Shown in pieces: positions 9,397 through 31,991 of a stretch of DNA of 38,386 nucleotides; within the stretch, counting starts at the first letter, position 1; every line of letters begins with the position of its first letter. The DNA is taken from the NCBI RefSeq assembly GCF_002735695.1, contig NZ_PDZH01000035.1, forward strand, positions 1 through 38,386. The letters run 5' to 3'. The notes under the pieces were generated by a model that was not told the DNA's origin, did not search any database, and was given only the letters and a program-made list of their open reading frames with translations. The position numbers were made by a program, and so were the translations under genes. Origin of the DNA: Chitinimonas sp. BJB300. GTDB lineage: Bacteria; Pseudomonadota; Gammaproteobacteria; Burkholderiales; Chitinimonadaceae.

Positions 9397-10034
9397 ATAT
9401 GGATGAATTGCGGAATTTAGACCCCAAGGACATCGCCAATTGGCCTGCTTCTCTACAAATAGGCGCATTGGTTGCGCTTATTGCTGCAATCGTTGCAGCA
9501 GGGTATTTCTTAATCTTGGCCGATCAGAATGAAGAGTTAGAGCAAGGGCGGAATCGCGAGGGAGAGTTGAAGCAAGCGTTCCTAGATAGAAAAGCCAAGG
9601 CGATAAACTTAGATGCCTATAGGCAGCAGCTTGCAGAAATCCAAGAGTCATTTGGTGCTCTACTTAAACAACTGCCCAGCAAAGCTGAAATGGAAACGCT
9701 TATTACTGAGATTAATCAGTCTGGTGTTGGTCGAGGGCTGCAGTTTGAACTTTTCAGGCCTGCTGTCACAGAGACGAAAACAGCGGAATTTGCGGAGCGG
9801 CCAATAGAAATTAAAATTGGCGGTGCGTACCATGACTTGGCTGCATTCGCTAGTGATGTTTCTCAATTATCTAGAATTGTGACTTTAGGAAGCATGCAAA
9901 TTGCATTGCCTACTCCTGGCGCATCGAGTGCTTTATCCATGCAGGCAGTGGCCAGTACTTACCGAGCTTTGGATGAGGAAGAGGCAGTCGATATTCGTAG
10001 GACCGAAGCCGCGGCCAAGAAGAATAAGAACTGA
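9393..10034 (+). CDS. pilO: Type IV pilus assembly protein PilO
   Basis: PilO forms a heterodimer with PilN in the inner-membrane alignment complex. The 213-residue protein has a short cytoplasmic N-terminus, one membrane helix (about 22-46), a coiled coil with NEELEQGRNREGELKQAF-type heptads (about 49-85) and a ferredoxin-like C-terminal domain. The motif GVGRGLQFELFRP near residues 112-124 is characteristic of the family. It overlaps pilN by 4 bp and lies 11 bp before pilP. Confidence 0.95.
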   Translation: MNMDELRNLDPKDIANWPASLQIGALVALIAAIVAAGYFLILADQNEELEQGRNREGELKQAFLDRKAKAINLDAYRQQLAEIQESFGALLKQLPSKAEMETLITEINQSGVGRGLQFELFRPAVTETKTAEFAERPIEIKIGGAYHDLAAFASDVSQLSRIVTLGSMQIALPTPGASSALSMQAVASTYRALDEEEAVDIRRTEAAAKKNKN

Positions 10035-10045
10035 CGGGTGCCTAT

Positions 10046-10573
10046 ATGTTCAAGTTCAAGAAAATCGTTACATTAATTCCCGTACTTTTCCTTGCAGCGT
10101 GTGCTGGCGAAGAGTTTGGTGATTTAAAAGCCTGGATGGATGAAAGTAGTGTTGGGCTTAAGGGGCATATTGAACCGCTTCCAGAAGTCAAACCTTACGA
10201 ACCGTTCATTTATGCGGCTTTTGATCTAGTTGACCCCTTTAATAAAAGCAAGATGGCTGTCGCAAGGAAGTCGGGCGGCTTACTGGCGCCAAACCTGAAT
10301 CGTCCTCGTGAGACTTTGGAGTCTTACGATCTTGAAAAGCTTCGAATGGTTGGCTCGCTTCAGCGAGGTAAGGAGATTAACGCTTTGATTAAGGCGCCAG
10401 ATGGAAATCTTTACCGAATAAAGTTGGGCGGTTATATGGGACAGAATTTTGGTATGGTTACCGCGATCTCTGAATCTGAGATTTCTTTGAAAGAGATTGT
10501 TGAAGATAGTGGTGGTGACTGGGTGGAACGCACGAGTGTCCTGGCACTGGAAGAAACGGAGCAGAAGAAATGA
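10046..10573 (+). CDS. pilP: Type IV pilus assembly lipoprotein PilP
   Basis: PilP is an inner-membrane lipoprotein whose periplasmic domain binds the PilQ secretin and connects it to PilNO. The 175 residues start with a lipoprotein signal peptide ending in LAAC (lipobox, Cys about residue 20). An extended linker and a small beta-domain follow, in which DLVDPFNKSK and KLRMVGSLQRG are typical of the family. It overlaps pilQ by 4 bp. The lipobox supports the start chosen. Confidence 0.95.
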   Translation: MFKFKKIVTLIPVLFLAACAGEEFGDLKAWMDESSVGLKGHIEPLPEVKPYEPFIYAAFDLVDPFNKSKMAVARKSGGLLAPNLNRPRETLESYDLEKLRMVGSLQRGKEINALIKAPDGNLYRIKLGGYMGQNFGMVTAISESEISLKEIVEDSGGDWVERTSVLALEETEQKK

Positions 10574-25759: not shown

Positions 25760-25788
25760 TTGACCTGAGTGTGGGTTTGATATTTAAT
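25760..25788 (+). promoter_or_regulatory. Predicted promoter of the gbsR-like gene
   Basis: TTGACC (25760-25765) and TTTAAT (25783-25788) are 17 bases apart. The -10 is the first six bases of the palindromic operator, so a protein bound there would block RNA polymerase. Confidence 0.6.
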
Positions 25789-25810
25789 TTCTGTAACGAC
25801 AGAAATTAAA
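25783..25810. promoter_or_regulatory. Operator 1: perfect 12+12 bp palindrome
   Basis: TTTAATTTCTGT and ACAGAAATTAAA are exact inverted repeats around a four-base centre (AACG). The site lies ten bases before the ATG of the GbsR/MarR-type regulator and overlaps the predicted -10. A near copy occurs at 26764-26791. The obvious inference is autorepression by the adjacent regulator. Confidence 0.8.
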
Positions 25811-25820
25811 GAAATGCAAC

Positions 25821-26363
25821 ATGAATCTCAGCCCGACGACTCAAAAATACATCCTCCACTGGGGAGAGATGGGCACCCGCTGGGGGGTAAACCGCACGGT
25901 GGCGCAGTTACATGCCCTGTTATTTCTTAGCGGCAAGCCGTTGCATGCCGAAGAAATCAGCGAAACCCTGGATGTGGCGCGTTCAAATGTCAGCACCAGC
26001 CTAAAGGAACTGCAAAGCTGGGGCTTGATTCGTGTGACCCATGTGATGAGCGACCGGCGAGATCACTTCGTTGCCTTGCAGGACGTATGGGAAATTTTCC
26101 GGGTGATCATGGAAGAGCGCAAAAAGCGTGAACTCGACCCTACGTTGCTGGTATTGCGTGAATGCGCCGTGGAGGCACAAAACGATACAGGGCTTGATGC
26201 CGCCACGCGCACCAGGATGGATGAAGTGTTGGTTTTCCTGGAAATATTAATGCGCGCCTATGACGACTTCAAGCACCTGCCGCCCCCAACTCTGCAACGG
26301 TTTTTGAAGGCTGGCGGAAAGATCGCGCGCCTTCTCGGCCCCGATGAAAAGGATGAACTATGA
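25821..26363 (+). CDS. GbsR/MarR-family transcriptional regulator
   Basis: The 180-residue protein has a winged helix-turn-helix of the GbsR type: GTRWGVNRTVAQLHALLFLSGKPLHAEEI, then the recognition helix in VARSNVSTSLKELQSWGLIRV and a wing MSDRRDHFVA. A helical C-terminal dimerisation part follows (about 95-180). Relatives include the choline/betaine regulators GbsR and OpcR, but many proteobacterial members sit beside membrane proteins and have unknown ligands. Palindromes before this gene and after the next one are likely its binding sites. It overlaps the DCC gene by 4 bp (ATGA). Confidence 0.88.
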   Translation: MNLSPTTQKYILHWGEMGTRWGVNRTVAQLHALLFLSGKPLHAEEISETLDVARSNVSTSLKELQSWGLIRVTHVMSDRRDHFVALQDVWEIFRVIMEERKKRELDPTLLVLRECAVEAQNDTGLDAATRTRMDEVLVFLEILMRAYDDFKHLPPPTLQRFLKAGGKIARLLGPDEKDEL

Positions 26364-26752
26364 CAACCCTGACGCTCTTCTTTGATAGCCGGTGCGCATT
26401 GTGTGCGGCTGAAATGCACCGTCTGGCTCGGTGGGACAAGCACGGGTGCCTTGCTTATATCGACATGCATGGTGAGGGGTTTGACGCAGCAGATTACGGC
26501 ACTACGCTGGCCGCAATGGATGCAGAACTGCATGGCTTGGATGCACAGGGGCATTTAATGGTGGGTATCGACGCCATTGCTGCGGCTTATACCGCGGTGG
26601 GGTTGGGTTGGTTGGTGTGGCCGCTTAAAGTGGAATTGACCAAACCACTTTGGGGTAGAACTTACCGATGGTTTGCACGTAATCGTTACCGCGTCAGTCG
26701 GCTCATGGGATATCGCTGTGCGGATGGGGTGTGCGATCTACGTTTTCGTTAA
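26360..26752 (+). CDS. DCC-family thiol-disulfide oxidoreductase-like protein (DUF393)
   Basis: The 130-residue protein belongs to the DCC/DUF393 group, small thioredoxin-fold-like proteins named for the motif D-x-x-C-x-x-C. Here it reads Asp9, Cys12 and Cys15 in FDSRCALCAAEM. The segment GHLMVGIDAIAAAYTAVGLGWLVWPL and the C-terminal CADGVCDLRF, with another Cys pair, are also typical. A redox role is assumed in the family, but no substrate is established. It overlaps the regulator by 4 bp, so the two form one transcript. The second operator begins 12 bases after its stop. Confidence 0.85.
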   Translation: MTTLTLFFDSRCALCAAEMHRLARWDKHGCLAYIDMHGEGFDAADYGTTLAAMDAELHGLDAQGHLMVGIDAIAAAYTAVGLGWLVWPLKVELTKPLWGRTYRWFARNRYRVSRLMGYRCADGVCDLRFR

Positions 26753-26763
26753 ATTTTTTATCT

Positions 26764-26791
26764 TTTTATTTCTGTTTTTACAGAAATTAAG
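26764..26791. promoter_or_regulatory. Operator 2: near copy of operator 1
   Basis: TTTTATTTCTGT and ACAGAAATTAAG flank a TTTT centre. The arms match operator 1 in 22 of 24 positions, with identical spacing. It lies in the 142-bp gap between the DCC gene and the saccharopine-reductase-like gene, so that operon is probably under the same regulator. AT-rich sequence just upstream could hold the promoter, but I see no clear -35. Confidence 0.72.
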
Positions 26792-26818
26792 GAAAGAAAG
26801 AATCTCCGAAGCTGCTAT

Positions 26819-26873
26819 CTAAGAACCTATTTACGATCTGTCGCGAGCAGCCGTCAGCAGGGTGAAGCGCCGC
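26819..26873. repeat. Truncated MITE-like element
   Basis: Beginning with CTAAGAACCTATTTACGATC, this 55-base stretch matches the reverse complement of the right end of the 149-bp element at 21340-21488 with about five differences. It then stops, and there is no second end. It is inserted between operator 2 and the start of the downstream operon, within the presumed 5' untranslated region. Confidence 0.75.
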
Positions 26874-26894
26874 ATTTGAGTAGTGAGACCAAGT

Positions 26895-27995
26895 ATGCAT
26901 ACCACGCTCGTTTTAGGCGGCTATGGTTTTTTTGGTAGCCGTATTTGTCAGGCACTTGCATCGAATAAGCAGATCTATCTGCTTATTGGGGGGCGCGACG
27001 GCGCGCAGGCGCAGGCACTTGCCAGCAAGCTTTGCTTGAAACCCGATCAAGGCCTTGCTATTGACGCCTATGCGCCAGATCTTGCCGAGCGTCTTGTGGC
27101 ATTAAATGTTGATACGGTGATACATACGGCTGGGCCGTTCCAGGGGCAGGACTACACGGTGGCGCGGGCGGCAATTGCAGCTGGGGCAAATTACATCGAT
27201 CTGGCGGATGGGCGTGATTTTGTCTCGGGTATCGAGCAACTCGACATCTTGGCGCGCACCCGGGGTGTATTTGTCTCAAGTGGGGCGAGCTCACTGCCGG
27301 CGCTCTCATCCGCGGTTGTTGATCGCTACCTGAGCCGATTTCGCCAGTTAACGTCCATTACGCACGGGATTGGTTCGGGTGCCCGCGCCCCAGGCCTCGC
27401 CACTATGCGAGGTGTATTTAGTTATTGTGGCAAGCCGTTTTCTTGGCTAAAGGCGGGTAGCTGGCAAACTACGCACGGTTGGTTGAACTTGAAGCGCTAT
27501 CGGTTTCCCTCGCCAGTTGGTACCCGATTGCTAGGTAGTTGTGATGTGCCAGATCTGGTTCTGTTTCCGCGTCGTTACCAGGGCGTGCATACCGTAGCGT
27601 TTCATGCAGGTTTTGCCGGCACTTTGGGGCATTTGTTTGTATGGTTTGGCGCTCAGCTGGTCCGTTTACGCATTATGCCAAGCCTTACACCGCTCGCCGC
27701 GCCGTTACATGCGATAAGCCAATGGCTTGAGCCCTTTGTCAGCGACAAAGGTGGGATGTTTGTCTCGTTGGAAGGAATCGGCATTGACGGCCAACCGCTT
27801 AAGCTGAATTGGCATTTGGTTGCAGCCCAAAATCATGGGCCATACATTCCCTGTGGCGCTTCTATTGCATTGGCTCTAAAGCTGGCCCGTGGTGAAAAAC
27901 TGCCGCATGGAGCAATGCCATGCATGGGTTTGTTAACAGTTGAAGACTATCTGGCGGCGTTGCAAGGTTTTGATGTGCATGAATTGCCTGCTTAA
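26895..27995 (+). CDS. Saccharopine dehydrogenase/reductase-like NAD(P)-binding protein
   Basis: The 366-residue protein starts with a Rossmann dinucleotide loop, LVLGGYGFFGSR (5-16). DTVIHTAGPFQGQDYTVARAAIAAGANYIDLADG (about 75-110) follows, the typical second half of the saccharopine-reductase NAD(P) domain. SSGASSLPALSSAVVD comes next. The C-terminal half is hydrophobic in places and resembles the group often fused to, or next to, DUF4166. The substrate is unknown; lysine metabolism is unlikely in this context. ATG 26895 is preferred over GTG 26883. It is the first gene after operator 2 and is followed by the SDR-DoxX gene after 15 bp. Confidence 0.82.
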   Translation: MHTTLVLGGYGFFGSRICQALASNKQIYLLIGGRDGAQAQALASKLCLKPDQGLAIDAYAPDLAERLVALNVDTVIHTAGPFQGQDYTVARAAIAAGANYIDLADGRDFVSGIEQLDILARTRGVFVSSGASSLPALSSAVVDRYLSRFRQLTSITHGIGSGARAPGLATMRGVFSYCGKPFSWLKAGSWQTTHGWLNLKRYRFPSPVGTRLLGSCDVPDLVLFPRRYQGVHTVAFHAGFAGTLGHLFVWFGAQLVRLRIMPSLTPLAAPLHAISQWLEPFVSDKGGMFVSLEGIGIDGQPLKLNWHLVAAQNHGPYIPCGASIALALKLARGEKLPHGAMPCMGLLTVEDYLAALQGFDVHELPA

Positions 27996-28010
27996 GCAGA
28001 CCACATTGAC

Positions 28011-29276
28011 ATGAAAATACTACTGATAGGTGCGAGTGGTTTGGTTGGCAGGGCGTTGCTTGCCAAGTTATCAACTGAAGGTCATACGATCTTGGCATTG
28101 TGTCGCCACCCCCTAGCCAGATTGCCACAAGAACAGGGCGTGCGCTGGTTGTCGGTCGATATGGTGAGGCTTTGTAGTGCGATTGATTGGCTGCCTTTGC
28201 TGGATGGAGTGGATGTAGTAATCAATTGTGCTGGCAGCTACCAGAAGACCCTGCCCAATGAGTATTTTGTGCTGAATGCTGAAGCACCAGCCGCCTTGTT
28301 TGCGGCCTGCGCTGAAATGGGCGTCGCCAAGGTAATTCAACTGTCGGCATTGGGGGCCACGCCGAACGCGGTATCAGCATACTGGCGTAGTAAGGCGGCG
28401 GGTGAAGCGGCATTGATGAAGACGGGGCTCGACTGGGCTATCGTCCGTCCTTCGTTGGTGTATGCCGATGAGGCGAACAGTAGTGTCTTGTTTTGCCGTA
28501 TGGCAGCGTGCCCCTGGCTTTTTGTTCCGGCCGATGCGGGTGTCGTGCAGCCTATCCATCTTGATGATCTGACCTTGCTGCTTATGCAATTGCTTGAAAG
28601 CCCCAGCATTGGTCGGCGCATCATTGATGCAGTCGGGCCCCACGCGTTGGCATGGGCAGACTACTTGCAAATTGTGCGACAGAGCATGGGGTTGTCGCCT
28701 GCCAAGGTGATTAGGCTTCCAGCCGGGTTGCTCCGTTGGGTAGTGAAACTGGCGCATTATTCATCTGGTCATCTGCTAAGCGCAGACAGCCTGCTCATGT
28801 TGCACCACGGTAGTTGTGCTGCTGGGCTTGATACCACAGGCCAGCTTGCGCGTATTGCGCCAAGCCAATTTACGCATCCCGCGCTTTTGGCTCAGGCGCA
28901 GCTAGCCAATTGGTTACCGCTGGCCCGGTTGGTATTGGCGTGGCTCTGGTTATTTACCGCACTGGTGTCGTACTGGGAATGGCATACCGGGCTGGCCCTG
29001 CTTGCCGATATCGGATTGCCACCTAAATGGCAGCCTGCCGTACTGTGGGCAGGTATCGGGCTGGACGCCGTAATGGGGCTGCTTACCTTGCTGTTGCCAA
29101 GTCGCAGCTTATGGCTGGCACAAGCCGGATTAGTTGTGGGTTACACCGCCATCATCACTGTCTTTCTACCCATCTGGTGGCTGCATCCGTTTGGACCAAT
29201 CAGCAAGAATCTGCCCGTACTGTTGGTGCTGGGCTTGCTGCTTTGCACGCAACCACGGCGGTCTGCCGCGCCTTAA
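28011..29276 (+). CDS. NAD(P)-binding SDR protein fused to a DoxX-like membrane domain
   Basis: The N-terminal 290 residues are an atypical SDR / NmrA-like NAD(P)-binding domain: IGASGLVGRAL (6-16), VDVVINCAGSYQ, and KVIQLSALGATP with an SxxxxxYWRSK pattern that places Tyr and Lys in a catalytic arrangement. The C-terminal 120 residues form about four membrane helices of the DoxX-like family (WLFTALVSYWEWHTG, LWAGIGLDAVMGLLTLLLP). This fusion is known in databases as SDR with DoxX-like C-terminus, without assigned function. It would place a reductase at the membrane, perhaps acting on a lipid or quinone-like substrate (inference). Confidence 0.85.
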   Translation: MKILLIGASGLVGRALLAKLSTEGHTILALCRHPLARLPQEQGVRWLSVDMVRLCSAIDWLPLLDGVDVVINCAGSYQKTLPNEYFVLNAEAPAALFAACAEMGVAKVIQLSALGATPNAVSAYWRSKAAGEAALMKTGLDWAIVRPSLVYADEANSSVLFCRMAACPWLFVPADAGVVQPIHLDDLTLLLMQLLESPSIGRRIIDAVGPHALAWADYLQIVRQSMGLSPAKVIRLPAGLLRWVVKLAHYSSGHLLSADSLLMLHHGSCAAGLDTTGQLARIAPSQFTHPALLAQAQLANWLPLARLVLAWLWLFTALVSYWEWHTGLALLADIGLPPKWQPAVLWAGIGLDAVMGLLTLLLPSRSLWLAQAGLVVGYTAIITVFLPIWWLHPFGPISKNLPVLLVLGLLLCTQPRRSAAP

Positions 29277-29288
29277 CAGGGACTCATC

Positions 29289-29753
29289 ATGGACTACCTA
29301 CTGACCAAATGGGTGCATATCCTCTCCGCCACGCTGATGTTTGGCACCGGTTTTGGCACAGCCTTTTACATGTTCGTCACCAACCGCAGCAAGAACGTCC
29401 AGGCCATCGCGGTGGTAACCCATTGGGTAGTACGTGCAGACTGGTGGTTCACTACGCCTTCCATCATTGTTCAGCCGCTCAGTGGTTTCTGGATGATTCA
29501 TCTCGCTGGCTTCCCAATGGCATCTCTCTGGATCGTATGGTCGATCGCGCTCTATATATTGGCTGGGGTTTGCTGGTTGCCGGTAGTCTGGTTGCAACTA
29601 CGCATGCGTGATATGGCTGCAGAGGCAGCGAGGAACAACACGCCTATCCCCTCTCAATATTGGTTTTATGAGCGAATATGGACGGCATTGGGTTTCCCTG
29701 CTTTTGGCGGTTTGATCGTCGTGTATTGGTTGATGGTGCACAAGTCGCTGTAA
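29289..29753 (+). CDS. DUF2269-family integral membrane protein
   Basis: The 154-residue protein has four membrane helices and the opening LTKWVHILSATLMFGTGFGTAFYMF, characteristic of DUF2269. A His near residue 9, further polar residues in the helices (TPSIIVQPLSGFWMI) and WFYERIWTALGFPAFGGLIVVYWLM at the end are also typical. A cofactor such as haem is conceivable from the intramembrane His residues but is not shown. It lies 12 bp after the SDR-DoxX gene and is surely cotranscribed with it. Confidence 0.85.
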   Translation: MDYLLTKWVHILSATLMFGTGFGTAFYMFVTNRSKNVQAIAVVTHWVVRADWWFTTPSIIVQPLSGFWMIHLAGFPMASLWIVWSIALYILAGVCWLPVVWLQLRMRDMAAEAARNNTPIPSQYWFYERIWTALGFPAFGGLIVVYWLMVHKSL

Positions 29754-29823
29754 GGCGTGGTATCCATCGCCTTTTCCCTTCACTGGTGCCCCATGGGAAA
29801 TGCCTTTACGGCGGTAAATCACG

Positions 29824-30262
29824 ATGGCCATCATCGAACACCTTACAGATATCCGCACTACGCAAGCCCGAGCCTTCCAGGCCGCCCAAGATTACGCACT
29901 CCGTAAACGTTGGGACCCGTTCGCCGCCCGGCTGGAAAAAGAGGAAACCGTTGATGGTCGGCAGATAGTGACAGTGACGGCTTGGCATGGTGCGACCATG
30001 CAGGTCGAATTTGCCGCCTGAGCGTGCGGCTATCCGAATGGTGGTGGGGCCGCGTATGTTGCAAAGCTTTGCCGGTAGCTGGGCTTTTCTTGATAAGGAC
30101 ACTGAAAGTGTGGAGGCGCGCTTTCGCTATCAACTCAAGGCTACGCCGGCATGGATGTGGTTGGAATGGCTGATGCGGTGGTATTTCAGCTGGGAAACCC
30201 GGCGCAGGCTGCATGCTCTGAAGCGATATCTGGAATCGACGGCCGATGACCATGTGAATTGA
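29824..30262 (+). pseudogene. SRPBCC/polyketide-cyclase-like gene with a frameshift
   Basis: Two partial frames together read as one SRPBCC-type (START-like lipid-binding fold) protein of about 145 residues. Frame 1 (29824-30021) gives IEHLTDIRTTQARAFQAAQDY, then RWDPF and a TVTAWHGATMQVEF strand, and then meets TGA. In the +1 frame the expected continuation PPERAAIRMVVG, then SFAGSWAFL and a FRYQLKATP strand followed by a long helix, runs to 30262. The shift is near 30012-30016. Removing one base there restores the frame. It could be a broken gene, a sequencing error or, less likely, programmed frameshifting. Its position in the DUF2269-DUF4166 interval suggests that it was a member of the cluster. 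Confidence 0.65.
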
Positions 30263-30263
30263 G

Positions 30264-30294
30264 GTGCAGCGCAGATTACTGCGCCACGCTGCAC
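30264..30294. repeat. Hairpin after the SRPBCC gene
   Basis: GTGCAGCG (30264-30271) pairs with CGCTGCAC (30287-30294). A competing inner hairpin, GCGCAG-atta-CTGCGC (30269-30284), is also perfect. No T-run follows, so it is not a standard terminator. The two alternative folds lie in the 180-bp gap before the DUF4166 gene, where I see nothing else apart from a smaller GTGTTC/GAACAC inverted repeat near 30400-30425. Confidence 0.4.
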
Positions 30295-30442
30295 GAGTGT
30301 GCTAAACCTTCTGCCAATTAGCCCGATATGAATGCAAGTTGGTTGGAGCCTTGCGAGCTGTATGAGGGTCAGTTCTATTGATTGAGTGACATGAAATCAC
30401 GTGTTCACCACAGACGTTGAACACACTAAAGGTGCATGGACC

Positions 30443-31009
30443 ATGCCTAGTCTCTATCAAACCGCATTGGGGCCTGAATTCGGCCAGCTTGTGCCGTTGC
30501 TGCAATGGTTTCATACCGAGGTCAGAACCGTTTGGCAGGGTGAAGCAACGGTGCGTTGGAGTCGCAATCCCTTGTTTCGCCTTTTGGTATTGCTGGCCCG
30601 TCTGCCGAAGGAAGGTGAAGACATTGCGGTGGCTGTACAACTTTTTGTACATGATGGGAAAGAGATATGGCAACGCCGTTTTGCTGATCGCCCCATGGTT
30701 TCCCGCCAGTACATGGATGCCGATGGTTTGTGTGAATCGATGGGTCTGTTTAGTCTGCTACTCAGCACAGAGGTACATGAGGGCGGGCTGATTCAGCACA
30801 GTACGCAAAGTCGCTGGTTGGGTATATCGCTGCCCACTTTCTTGGCTCTCCGCGTGATGGCAAAGGAATGGAGCGAACGTGGACGCATGCACTTTGATGT
30901 CACCATCTATTGGGGACGTTGGGAGTTAATCCGTTACACCGGCTGGTTGCAGCCGATTTATTCACGCTGGCTACCTTCAAACAGTGATTCTGAGATTTAC
31001 GCTGCCTAA
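30443..31009 (+). CDS. DUF4166-family protein
   Basis: The 188-residue protein matches the DUF4166 pattern: LYQTALGPEFGQLVPLLQWFH, an ARLPKEGEDIAVAVQLFVHDGKEIWQRRFADRPMVSRQY core, and LGLFSLLL-type and WLGISLPTF segments. DUF4166 is often the C-terminal part of saccharopine-dehydrogenase-like proteins; here it is a separate gene in the same cluster. No function is known. ATG 30443 is chosen as the start before the conserved region. The TAA stop (31007-31009) comes from the left end of a MITE-like element, so the last few residues may not be original. Confidence 0.78.
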   Translation: MPSLYQTALGPEFGQLVPLLQWFHTEVRTVWQGEATVRWSRNPLFRLLVLLARLPKEGEDIAVAVQLFVHDGKEIWQRRFADRPMVSRQYMDADGLCESMGLFSLLLSTEVHEGGLIQHSTQSRWLGISLPTFLALRVMAKEWSERGRMHFDVTIYWGRWELIRYTGWLQPIYSRWLPSNSDSEIYAA

Positions 31010-31153
31010 GAACCTGTTCAAAGCCTCGCGAGCTAGGGCGGGACAAGGCGAAAACAGCCGAGGTAGCGGAGTTTACATAGGGTAAATGAGCATTCCGAGA
31101 GTGTTTTCAACGCCATATTGCCGTCGCACAGCAGACTTTAGACAGGTTCTTAG
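31006..31153. mobile_element. 148-bp MITE-like element, second type
   Basis: The outer ends CTAAGAACCTGT (from 31006) and its exact complement (to 31153) form 12-bp terminal inverted repeats that continue imperfectly (TTCAAAG against TCTAAAG). The size matches the element at 21340 and the first bases GAACCTGTT are shared, but the core is different, so this is a second type moved by a related or the same transposase. It has no coding capacity. It supplies the stop of the DUF4166 gene. Confidence 0.8.
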
Positions 31154-31218
31154 AGAAAGCTTGGTTACAGCATGAGATCTGGTAGGGGTGCCGTTTTGAG
31201 ATGAAAAGCAGTACTTTC

Positions 31219-31280: not shown

Positions 31281-31991
31281 TCAATCACCTCCGCCGCAGC
31301 CACCCCCACAGCCTCCGCCATCTCCTCCACCGTCGCCACTATCGTTGGTATTGCTGCTCGAACTGTCTGAAAAGCCGTCGGTACCGCCATCAAAACCGCT
31401 ATCAGAGAAGTCGCTCCCACAATGAACCACGCTGTTGCCGTCTGTAGCGGCTTGTGGGATGAGTGATTTGCAGTTGGCGGCATAACTGAAGCCATTGAGG
31501 ATGTTGAGTTTGGTATCCAACGCAAATAGCAGGGGTAAACGTGTCGGCGTAAGCGGGTTGATGTTTTCATCGCGGCAGGTAAACCGCCAGCAACGTCGCA
31601 GCCCAGCATTGCTCTGGCGGTTGTCGTTCAGCACGGCTGCGGGCGTATGGTGGAGGAACCGACCAAATGCCTTTTTGCAGAAGGCTTGATAGTTTTTTGT
31701 GTAAAGAATGAACTCGTGCCAGAGGTCATCTGCCACCTGGGAAGGCATGGATACATACTGGTAGCCGCTCTTTTGGTAAGCGAGGAAGAACTGCCGCAGG
31801 CCGTTGGCAACGAGTTGGCATTCTTTAATGGAGAGTTGGGGATGCTGCTTGCAAAGCTTCTCGAACAGCCCCTTGGGCAAGGTGAAGTTTCGAACATAGG
31901 CTTCCCGCTGCAATGCAAGATACCGCCGCCAGAGTACGAAGCAGATAGTGCTGCTGACGATGAAGCAAACGATAAGAACGCTATTTCGCAA
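31281..31991 (-). CDS. Membrane-anchored protein with a Gly/Cys-rich tail
   Basis: The 236-residue protein has one N-terminal membrane helix (about 4-21) and a helical domain with DDLWHEFILYTKNYQAFC (89-105) and RFLHHTP (111-117). That pattern resembles the DUF1399-type domain of glycine-rich domain proteins. A variable region follows, then a low-complexity tail (about 195-236) of Ser, Asp, Asn and Gly ending GCGGGCGGGD. Trp-His-Glu and His-His could bind metal. The start is a TTG with a good ribosome-binding site (CAGGAG, 7-base spacing). The function is unknown. It is a single-gene unit lying after the ridA terminator. Confidence 0.72.
   Translation of the reverse strand: MRNSVLIVCFIVSSTICFVLWRRYLALQREAYVRNFTLPKGLFEKLCKQHPQLSIKECQLVANGLRQFFLAYQKSGYQYVSMPSQVADDLWHEFILYTKNYQAFCKKAFGRFLHHTPAAVLNDNRQSNAGLRRCWRFTCRDENINPLTPTRLPLLFALDTKLNILNGFSYAANCKSLIPQAATDGNSVVHCGSDFSDSGFDGGTDGFSDSSSSNTNDSGDGGGDGGGCGGGCGGGD

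Follow-up and report, generated by a model that had tools for sequence, protein, structure and literature searches.

Next to lnt in a Chitinimonas draft genome (4.74 Mb in 374 contigs) lies a plus-strand gene cluster that raises the question of whether its members form a regulon and, if so, what controls it and what its products do. The cluster occupies positions 25821-31009 of contig 285, the window of this study (38,386 nucleotides), and is followed by a minus-strand gene. According to the original prediction, a GbsR-type regulator encoded by the first gene governs the others through two matched operators; our analysis indicates that this protein is most probably a self-repressing GbsR-type regulator dedicated to a small membrane redox module. 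The gene order and domain content claimed for the cluster agreed with open reading frame (ORF) and Pfam profile results (Table 1). The regulator has a MarR-type winged helix resembling MJ223/GbsR, which places it in the GbsR-type group; its top match in the PDB is MJ223 (1ku9, 2.2e-11), its match to the CudC profile is weak (45.7 bits, cut-off 218), and an ortholog elsewhere in the genus is 86% identical. Its gene overlaps that of the DCC protein by 4 nt, and it adjoins its predicted targets, with candidate operators in front.

Operators and their coupling to the regulator

The two operators share the palindrome TTTCTGT-N4-ACAGAAA, that is, ATTTCTGT-N4-ACAGAAAT, at 25787-25806 and 26768-26787, and around operator 1 the full inverted repeat extends over about 25784-25810. 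When the 4.74-Mb genome was searched with the 20-mer pattern at up to 2 mismatches, these were the sole sites, and the reversed control gave 0. The exact 18-mer occurred at 15 places in 9 of 100 genomes examined from the order (G000, G004, G013, G021, G022, G032, G068, G097 and G099), against 1 place for the reversed control, and all 9 encode a regulator of the window's clade as defined by the tree described below. The 91 order genomes that have no exact site include regulator carriers with imperfect sites (G016, G059). A chance origin of the operators was considered and is ruled out by their uniqueness in their own genome together with the match to carriers in 9/9 cases among the 100 genomes. 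In 31 genomes chosen for GbsR matches, we found 32 exact sites in 19 genomes (reversed control, 1), of which 29 stand at the regulator locus and 2 precede DUF4166-bearing units: a distant operator lies ahead of a YfcH-DUF4166 pair (L219) and another ahead of a lone DUF4166 gene (L218). The last lies inside an unrelated ORF (G105:C7, L220), which we take to be UvrA, and is attributed to chance. Three of the 31 genomes (G237, G138 and G058), in which the best match is a regulator from the cytochrome bd-linked (cyd) side of the tree, have no site.

We then considered the operator from the side of the structural genes, using the best 80 of at least 549 confirmed DUF2269 loci from a DUF2269 profile scan (hereafter the named loci; 1.23 Mb in total) and accepting an operator at up to 3 of 14 mismatches within 320 bases upstream. 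GbsR was present within the stored stretch in 35 of the 80, with L083, which has just a 70-bit GbsR fragment, counted as lacking it and the near-identical loci L111 and L112 each counted. An operator preceded GbsR in all 35, and the site was exact in 22 loci. The 80 loci contain 36 exact sites, and every one stands no more than 200 nt ahead of a cluster gene, namely GbsR (19), SDR-DoxX (15, at a distance of 13-58 nt), DCC (1) or a small membrane protein (1). Among the 45 loci without GbsR, two have an exact operator (L081 and L084) and the others have at least 4 mismatches. We had predicted beforehand that the genomes of these two loci would encode the regulator elsewhere, and they do, at 72% and 73% identity, each elsewhere-encoded regulator having an operator of its own (L213, L214). 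When 11 loci with neither operator nor GbsR were tested, 3 genomes had a 72-73% ortholog elsewhere, 2 had a 46-50% relative and 6 had none. In the genomes of L089, L098 and L117 the ortholog elsewhere has its own operator and precedes either DUF4166 and YfcH or DCC and YfcH.

Predicted promoter architecture and a proposed mechanism

In the window, the last base of the -10 hexamer of the probable regulator promoter is the first base of operator 1, and the promoter scores 10/12 matches in this register; a consensus scan that requires an A at position 2 of the -10 element listed no promoter in the window. Register analysis of the regions upstream of the regulator (69 entries, 64 distinct) revealed two layouts. 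In layout A, found in Chitinimonas and many relatives, the -10 element ends on the first base of the operator; 31 regions gave 7.63/12 matches at offset -5 against a register mean of 4.18 (standard deviation (sd) 0.72), a register at which the AT-rich flank of the palindrome can itself raise the score, and the -10 element alone gave 4.24 against 1.75 (sd 0.52) in 41 regions. In layout B the right half of the operator supplies TTGACA as the -35 element and the -10 element lies at +30. Here 33 regions gave 8.85 against 4.01 (sd 0.86), a value that is inflated since the group was chosen by TGAC inside the operator and that includes five regions resembling layout A by eye (L076, L077, L079, L080 and L082); with groups redrawn by start distance, as also for the 41 regions of layout A, the -10 element alone gave 3.78 against 1.58 (sd 0.62) in 23 regions. 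In both layouts the operator overlaps the predicted core promoter, a placement that supports the earlier suggestion of a repressor.

A terminator-like hairpin stands ahead of operator 2 in 14 of the 33 loci in which operator 2 follows the regulator gene (window excluded), against 12 of 660 control windows, which were random and not matched to gene ends; therefore, operator 2 probably serves a second promoter in those 14 loci. We propose that a dimeric GbsR-type regulator would bind TTTCTGT-N4-ACAGAAA at two promoters. Promoter 1 would be the regulator's own and would serve the regulator and then DCC, while promoter 2 would, in relatives, drive SDR-DoxX and DUF2269; YfcH-like, DUF4166, SRPBCC and other members would join by lineage. 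With the operator on the core promoter, binding by this protein would shut off both promoters until a ligand or redox signal released the repressor. Autorepression is likewise proposed because the operator lies on the core promoter and because CydE and CioR, discussed below, provide an analogy.

Module membership and predicted function

Gene content was taken from GC-position gene calls on 12 loci and from profile counts. The membership profiles were built partly from the order loci that were counted, and those for the saccharopine-reductase-like protein (SDH) and the kinase from one sequence each, so that absences say little about distant homologs. SDR-DoxX and DUF2269 are the core of the module: both occur in 35/35 named GbsR loci, and in 75/80 named loci no more than 300 nt separate the end of the SDR-DoxX profile match from DUF2269. 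DCC accompanies 17/35 GbsR loci against 2/45 others, and DUF4166, detected with a broad profile in 5/80 named loci (3/80 with a narrow one), was in all five cases found together with GbsR. At order level, at least two kinds of cluster gene lie near 24/28 regulators of the cluster clade, a count that ignores strand (SDR-DoxX is on the opposite strand in L057, L060 and L062), and none lies near the 12 cyd-side regulators. A class draw placed DUF4166 in 20/274 genomes, 8 of which (G000, G282, G285, G323, G326, G427, G446 and G466) have DUF2269 within 2 kb of it. Among 20 hand-picked class stretches from outside the order, five (L245, L246, L247, L253 and L259) combine the regulator, two operators at up to 1 mismatch, SDR-DoxX and DUF2269; the regulator was not found in the other 15, some of which are on short contigs. 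The check on conservation of the neighbourhood that had been proposed together with the prediction was thus run: the module recurs across the order and outside it and is not confined to close relatives. Matched operators and conservation across lineages together uphold the idea of an undescribed regulon tied to the GbsR-type gene.

Some lineages add further genes: L045, L048 and L049 have a methyltransferase of the UbiE/CMAS-like superfamily, and the YfcH-type partner at L074 passes TIGR01777. At L048 (5093-6940, reverse-complement orientation), a long ORF after operator 2 reads in one half like a desaturase (PF00487, below cut-off), with a methyltransferase coming after it. In a Janthinobacterium metagenome-assembled genome (L083, 7227-8274), short GbsR, DCC and SDR-DoxX fragments are packed before an intact DUF2269 gene; they are either a deletion remnant or a misassembly.

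Two members of the cluster in the window are irregular. Inclusion of SDH as a regular member did not hold up: it was found in 0/35 named and 0/28 order-level GbsR loci, and the window's genome is the sole one among 7 of the genus to have it. Because it is absent from GbsR loci and from the 6 other genus genomes, SDH was probably inserted locally, in the interval from operator 2 to SDR-DoxX. With a profile made from the window sequence alone, it was detected in 21 of the 45 named DUF2269 loci that lack GbsR; in 20 of these 21 a DoxX-like stretch (74-145 bits) follows SDH and precedes DUF2269, and in the remaining one (L145) SDH comes after DUF2269. In our reading, SDH was inserted at this locus and is an alternative NAD(P) partner belonging to the same module. 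A UbiB-like ABC1 kinase directly follows DUF2269 in 9/21 SDH-type loci (L119, L135, L132, L141, L143, L100, L120, L124 and L106); the L119 kinase scores 438.7 bits against TIGR01982, under the cut-off of 487.55. For SRPBCC, the family match stands, although the gene is broken across frames and not intact, with profile positions 2-62 in the frame of 29824-30021 and positions 70-142 in another frame at 29987-30262. In another Chitinimonas locus (L036) the gene is broken at a different place, about 9873-10282, and in L038, L045 and L052 it is a single open frame, which would reflect either gene decay in parts of the genus or assembly errors. SRPBCC is rare, in 0/35 named and 3/28 order-level GbsR loci.

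Table 1. Features of the regulator locus in the window.
Feature	Position	Strand	Basis or remark
Probable regulator promoter, TTGACC-17 nt-TTTAAT	25760-25788	+	sequence; same register in other Chitinimonas
Operator 1, core TTTCTGTAACGACAGAAA	25788-25805	no strand	15 nt upstream of regulator ATG
GbsR-type (MarR superfamily) putative repressor, 180 aa	25821-26363	+	MarR_2 2.8e-10, above cut-off
DCC1-like thiol-disulfide oxidoreductase family protein, 130 aa	26360-26752	+	PF04134 1.1e-22
Operator 2, core TTTCTGTTTTTACAGAAA	26769-26786	no strand	16 nt past DCC stop codon
Possible remnant of one end of the 150-bp repeat	26818-26840	no strand	weak, 18-23 nt, between operator 2 and SDH
Saccharopine-reductase-like NAD(P)-binding protein (SDH), Sacchrp_dh_NADP	26895-27995	+	PF03435 6.7e-9
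SDR domain fused to DoxX_3 membrane part, 421 aa	28011-29276	+	PF13460 4.2e-16; PF13781 2.7e-20
DUF2269 four-helix membrane protein, 154 aa	29289-29753	+	PF10027 4.8e-60, 202.4 bits (cut-off 28)
SRPBCC (Polyketide_cyc2), split over two reading frames	~29824-30262	+	Pfam profile
DUF4166 protein	30443-31009	+	PF13761 1.1e-23, 84.3 bits (cut-off 23); start picked by homology, in-frame GTG also upstream at 30401

The end of the DUF4166 gene is overlapped by a 150-bp element (31004-31156) with imperfect terminal inverted repeats (CTAAGAACCTGTTC...CAGGTTCTTAG), which looks like a miniature inverted-repeat transposable element. At least 40 further copies occur in the genome at 87-95% identity (40 of 308 candidates were scored), and the plasmid collection contains one partial match at 76.7%. 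The possible remnant between operator 2 and SDH was absent from the matches listed in the genome-wide search for copies of this element. Beyond the element, the minus strand encodes a 236-aa protein (31281-31991) that has no Pfam match at E 0.01 and whose C-terminal tail is rich in Gly, Cys and Asp.

What the products do was approached through fold comparison. The top PDB matches of the SDR domain are the epimerase-named chains 9g83 (4.3e-18) and 7b0n (8e-11), followed from 9.4e-11 by 39-kDa subunits of complex I (NDUFA9-type). NDUFA9 is among the best-matching solved SDR domains, at about 1e-10; unlike it, the window's SDR domain is joined to a DoxX_3 membrane part, and SDR-DoxX had no complex I gene as a neighbour. 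The likeness does not imply a role in complex I. The AlphaFold2 model of DUF2269 has four long helices and a mean predicted local distance difference test (pLDDT) score of 91.5, with designed bundles at the top of its VIA list, and K7, H10 and D51 are invariant in 52 sequences. Searching the PDB with the DUF2269 profile (hmmsearch) or with SDH (phmmer) gave no match. A heme-related, HemJ-like role of DUF2269 was considered in view of the invariant K7 and H10 and dropped: the model shows a generic four-helix bundle with no Foldseek match at the threshold given below and with designed bundles heading the VIA list, so that nothing is claimed. In the available part of its description, the membrane domain of PuuD (DUF989) shows a distant profile similarity to DUF2269 (E 0.15, below usual significance; PMC4562309), and the 154-aa DUF2269 protein of the window differs from PuuD in having no cytochrome c part. 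A sequence search of the PDB with DUF4166 gave 3 insignificant matches. Its model, built from 6 sequences (pLDDT 88.9), gave a best Foldseek E of 4.1e-4 and VIA Z values of 8-11; the predicted barrel resembles DUF3598 (2o62; Z 11.0, root-mean-square deviation (rmsd) 4.0 over 137) and nitrobindin (Z about 10, rmsd about 3.8 over 133). Despite an identity of about 5-12% and extra helices, which set DUF4166 apart from the nitrobindin, FABP and DUF3598 calycin folds, the model suggests a calycin-type, lipocalin/FABP-like barrel.

The DUF4166 barrel and the similarity between SDR and NDUFA9 are consistent with the membrane redox or lipid-modifying theme of the original prediction, and the barrel, the SDR matches, the YfcH-type partner and the methyltransferase together suggest that the products use NAD(P)H to act on a hydrophobic substrate in the membrane. 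It is plausible, though we say so tentatively, that the module carries out NAD(P)H-linked reduction or remodelling of such a substrate (quinone, prenyl or acyl lipid), with SDR-DoxX and DUF2269 as the enzyme and DUF4166 and SRPBCC as substrate binders. A more specific picture, which we regard as speculative and rather improbable as a whole, would be an inducible NAD(P)H-driven membrane system that reduces, repairs or remodels a prenyl lipid or quinone, with SDR-DoxX and DUF2269 as its membrane enzyme, DUF4166 and SRPBCC as carriers and SDH as an interchangeable NAD(P) partner.

Relation to cytochrome bd-linked and other GbsR-type regulators

A tree of 41 regulators contains one 100/100 split, which separates 29 rows including the window from 12 others. 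Nine of these 12 cyd-side rows adjoin a cydA-like gene, its identity having been Pfam-tested in the window's own genome only; CydE and CioR themselves are outside the tree, and L053, L054 and L061 belong to the cyd side by the tree, which our counts follow. The window's regulator does not group with the cydAB-linked proteins, and cydAB was not found at the window locus. Its genome holds one regulator of each clade, the second GbsR (on C341) preceding cydA and cydB. Among the sampled regulators, those nearest to the window clade stand beside cydAB, the setting in which CydE and CioR also occur. A TTTC-N10-GAAA site lies upstream of 35/41 regulators. In the window clade 17/29 sites begin TTTCTGT and 4/29 TTTCA, the remainder being variable or imperfect; among the 12 cyd-side upstream regions, 9 have a TTTCA site and 3 have no TTTC-N10-GAAA. 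The site upstream of the own-genome cyd regulator is TTTCAAGAATTACTGAAA. In place of the TTTCAG half-site of the CydE/CioR subgroup the window has TTTCTGT, although the four cluster-clade sites with TTTCA blur this border. When the winged helices of 20 core and 9 cyd-linked rows were compared, A53 was replaced by S in 9/9 cyd-linked rows, and S60 by G and G68 by R in 8/9. Cys115 is kept in 18/20 core rows and is Ala in 9/9 cyd-linked rows; by eye, it is missing in 5/9 more distant cluster-clade rows. This cysteine may possibly serve as a thiol sensor.

These comparisons bear on the identity of the regulator. Were it a CydE/CioR-type repressor and the cluster merely an accessory of the cytochrome bd regulon, common family membership, the second GbsR beside cydAB in the same genome, the likeness of the operators in size and outer bases and the four cluster-clade sites that begin TTTCA would all fit. 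The tree nevertheless separates the two sides, the own cyd site differs and the genome has no third site at up to 2 mismatches, the 12 cyd-side regulators have no cluster genes beside them and several winged-helix residues differ; we therefore regard this explanation as hardly tenable. It is also highly improbable that the regulator is an activator or that the palindrome belongs to another protein. Activation by MarR-type proteins is known in general, and in layout B the operator carries the -35 element, where activators can also act. On the other side, the operator accompanies the regulator in different lineages and genomes, including in trans, its position in layout A (overlapping the end of the -10 element and covering the start region) is a repressing one, and the characterised GbsR-type relatives repress, as far as the available parts of their descriptions go.

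Other alternatives concern the target genes rather than the regulator. The genes further downstream could be independently expressed neighbours, with control reaching no further than the regulator, DCC and the gene behind operator 2. This is favoured by the gaps of 70 and 180 nt that flank SRPBCC in the window and by the frequent absence of DUF4166 and SRPBCC; around SRPBCC there is no promoter evidence and terminator-like sites occur at chance level only. We consider it unlikely, given that DUF4166-bearing units in two other genomes have an operator copy of their own and that DUF4166 lies within 2 kb of DUF2269 in 8/20 class genomes that have it. The module might also act on a target that is neither lipid nor quinone, for example by detoxifying thiols or oxidants through its DCC and DoxX parts. 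DoxX has been linked to thiol homeostasis in mycobacteria, and the thiol motif of DCC and its preference for GbsR loci (17/35 against 2/45) are in keeping with such a role. DCC is missing, however, in 18/35 GbsR loci, while SDR-DoxX and DUF2269 are present in all 35; the folds of DUF4166 (predicted) and SRPBCC are typical of hydrophobic-ligand binders, and a UbiB-like kinase stands beside 9/21 SDH-type loci. This leaves thiol or oxidant chemistry as a doubtful explanation, albeit one with a substantial minor chance.

Several observations weigh against a self-repressing regulator dedicated to a membrane redox module. The operators are not uniform, and those of the cluster-clade loci L039, L044, L055 and L058 begin TTTCA like the cyd side. 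In the window, no terminator was found ahead of operator 2, and SDH separates that operator from SDR-DoxX. Membership shifts by lineage, the 35 GbsR loci including DCC in 17, YfcH in 7, DUF4166 in 5 and SRPBCC in 0 cases. The DUF2269 model has no significant PDB match, and Foldseek gave none at E <=0.001. SDR-DoxX and DUF2269 occur with no GbsR in reach in 22/45 other loci, 20 of which have no exact operator, and at L089, L098 and L117 the pair has no operator even though the regulator is encoded elsewhere with an operator of its own. As these three loci show, SDR-DoxX and DUF2269 do not need this regulator, and the pair can exist outside the regulon. Finally, the available text on CydE describes a second footprint that does not contain the palindrome (PMC6096048).

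No published description of the cluster came up in full-text searches that used the domain names singly or together with GbsR, and for DUF2269 there were passing mentions only. The results place DUF2269, DUF4166, SDR-DoxX and DCC in one common regulatory context that can be tested, and the operator is sufficiently specific to locate further members elsewhere in a genome. Beside the cytochrome bd branch, which is the characterised proteobacterial GbsR branch found in the literature, they also point to a second one that has an operator code of its own. As part of the speculative picture of a prenyl lipid or quinone system given above, and because the repressor is closely related to cytochrome bd repressors, respiratory stress could be read twice; if so, it would be read once for the alternative oxidase and once for the membrane substrate feeding that oxidase.

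A survey of GbsR proteins grouped 179 of them, 73 with uninformative neighbourhoods, into cytochrome bd, betaine, transporter and unknown groups, and the gene set of the window is not among the groups mentioned in the part of the survey available (PMC6207618). In Bacillus, GbsR, OpuAR and OpcR belong to the same regulator superfamily and, like the window's protein as we read it, repress neighbouring genes; according to the same partial source they differ from it in controlling glycine betaine synthesis or uptake (PMC6207618). Closer parallels are CydE of Alishewanella and CioR of Chromobacterium violaceum, which the accessible portions of the reports describe as GbsR-type repressors of cytochrome bd operons (PMC6096048, PMC11837568). 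CydE is an autorepressor, and one of its two footprints holds an 18-bp TTTC-N10-GAAA palindrome (PMC6096048); CioR is a direct autorepressor (PMC11837568). As in the window, the GbsR-type protein is in both systems the first gene of its target operon, and autorepression would be a further common trait; the CydE footprint (TTTCAGAAATTTCTGAAA) and the window operator are alike as 18-bp TTTC-N10-GAAA palindromes. On the same partial accounts, the window departs from CydE and CioR in that its predicted targets are genes other than cydAB and its half-site is TTTCTGT instead of TTTCAG.

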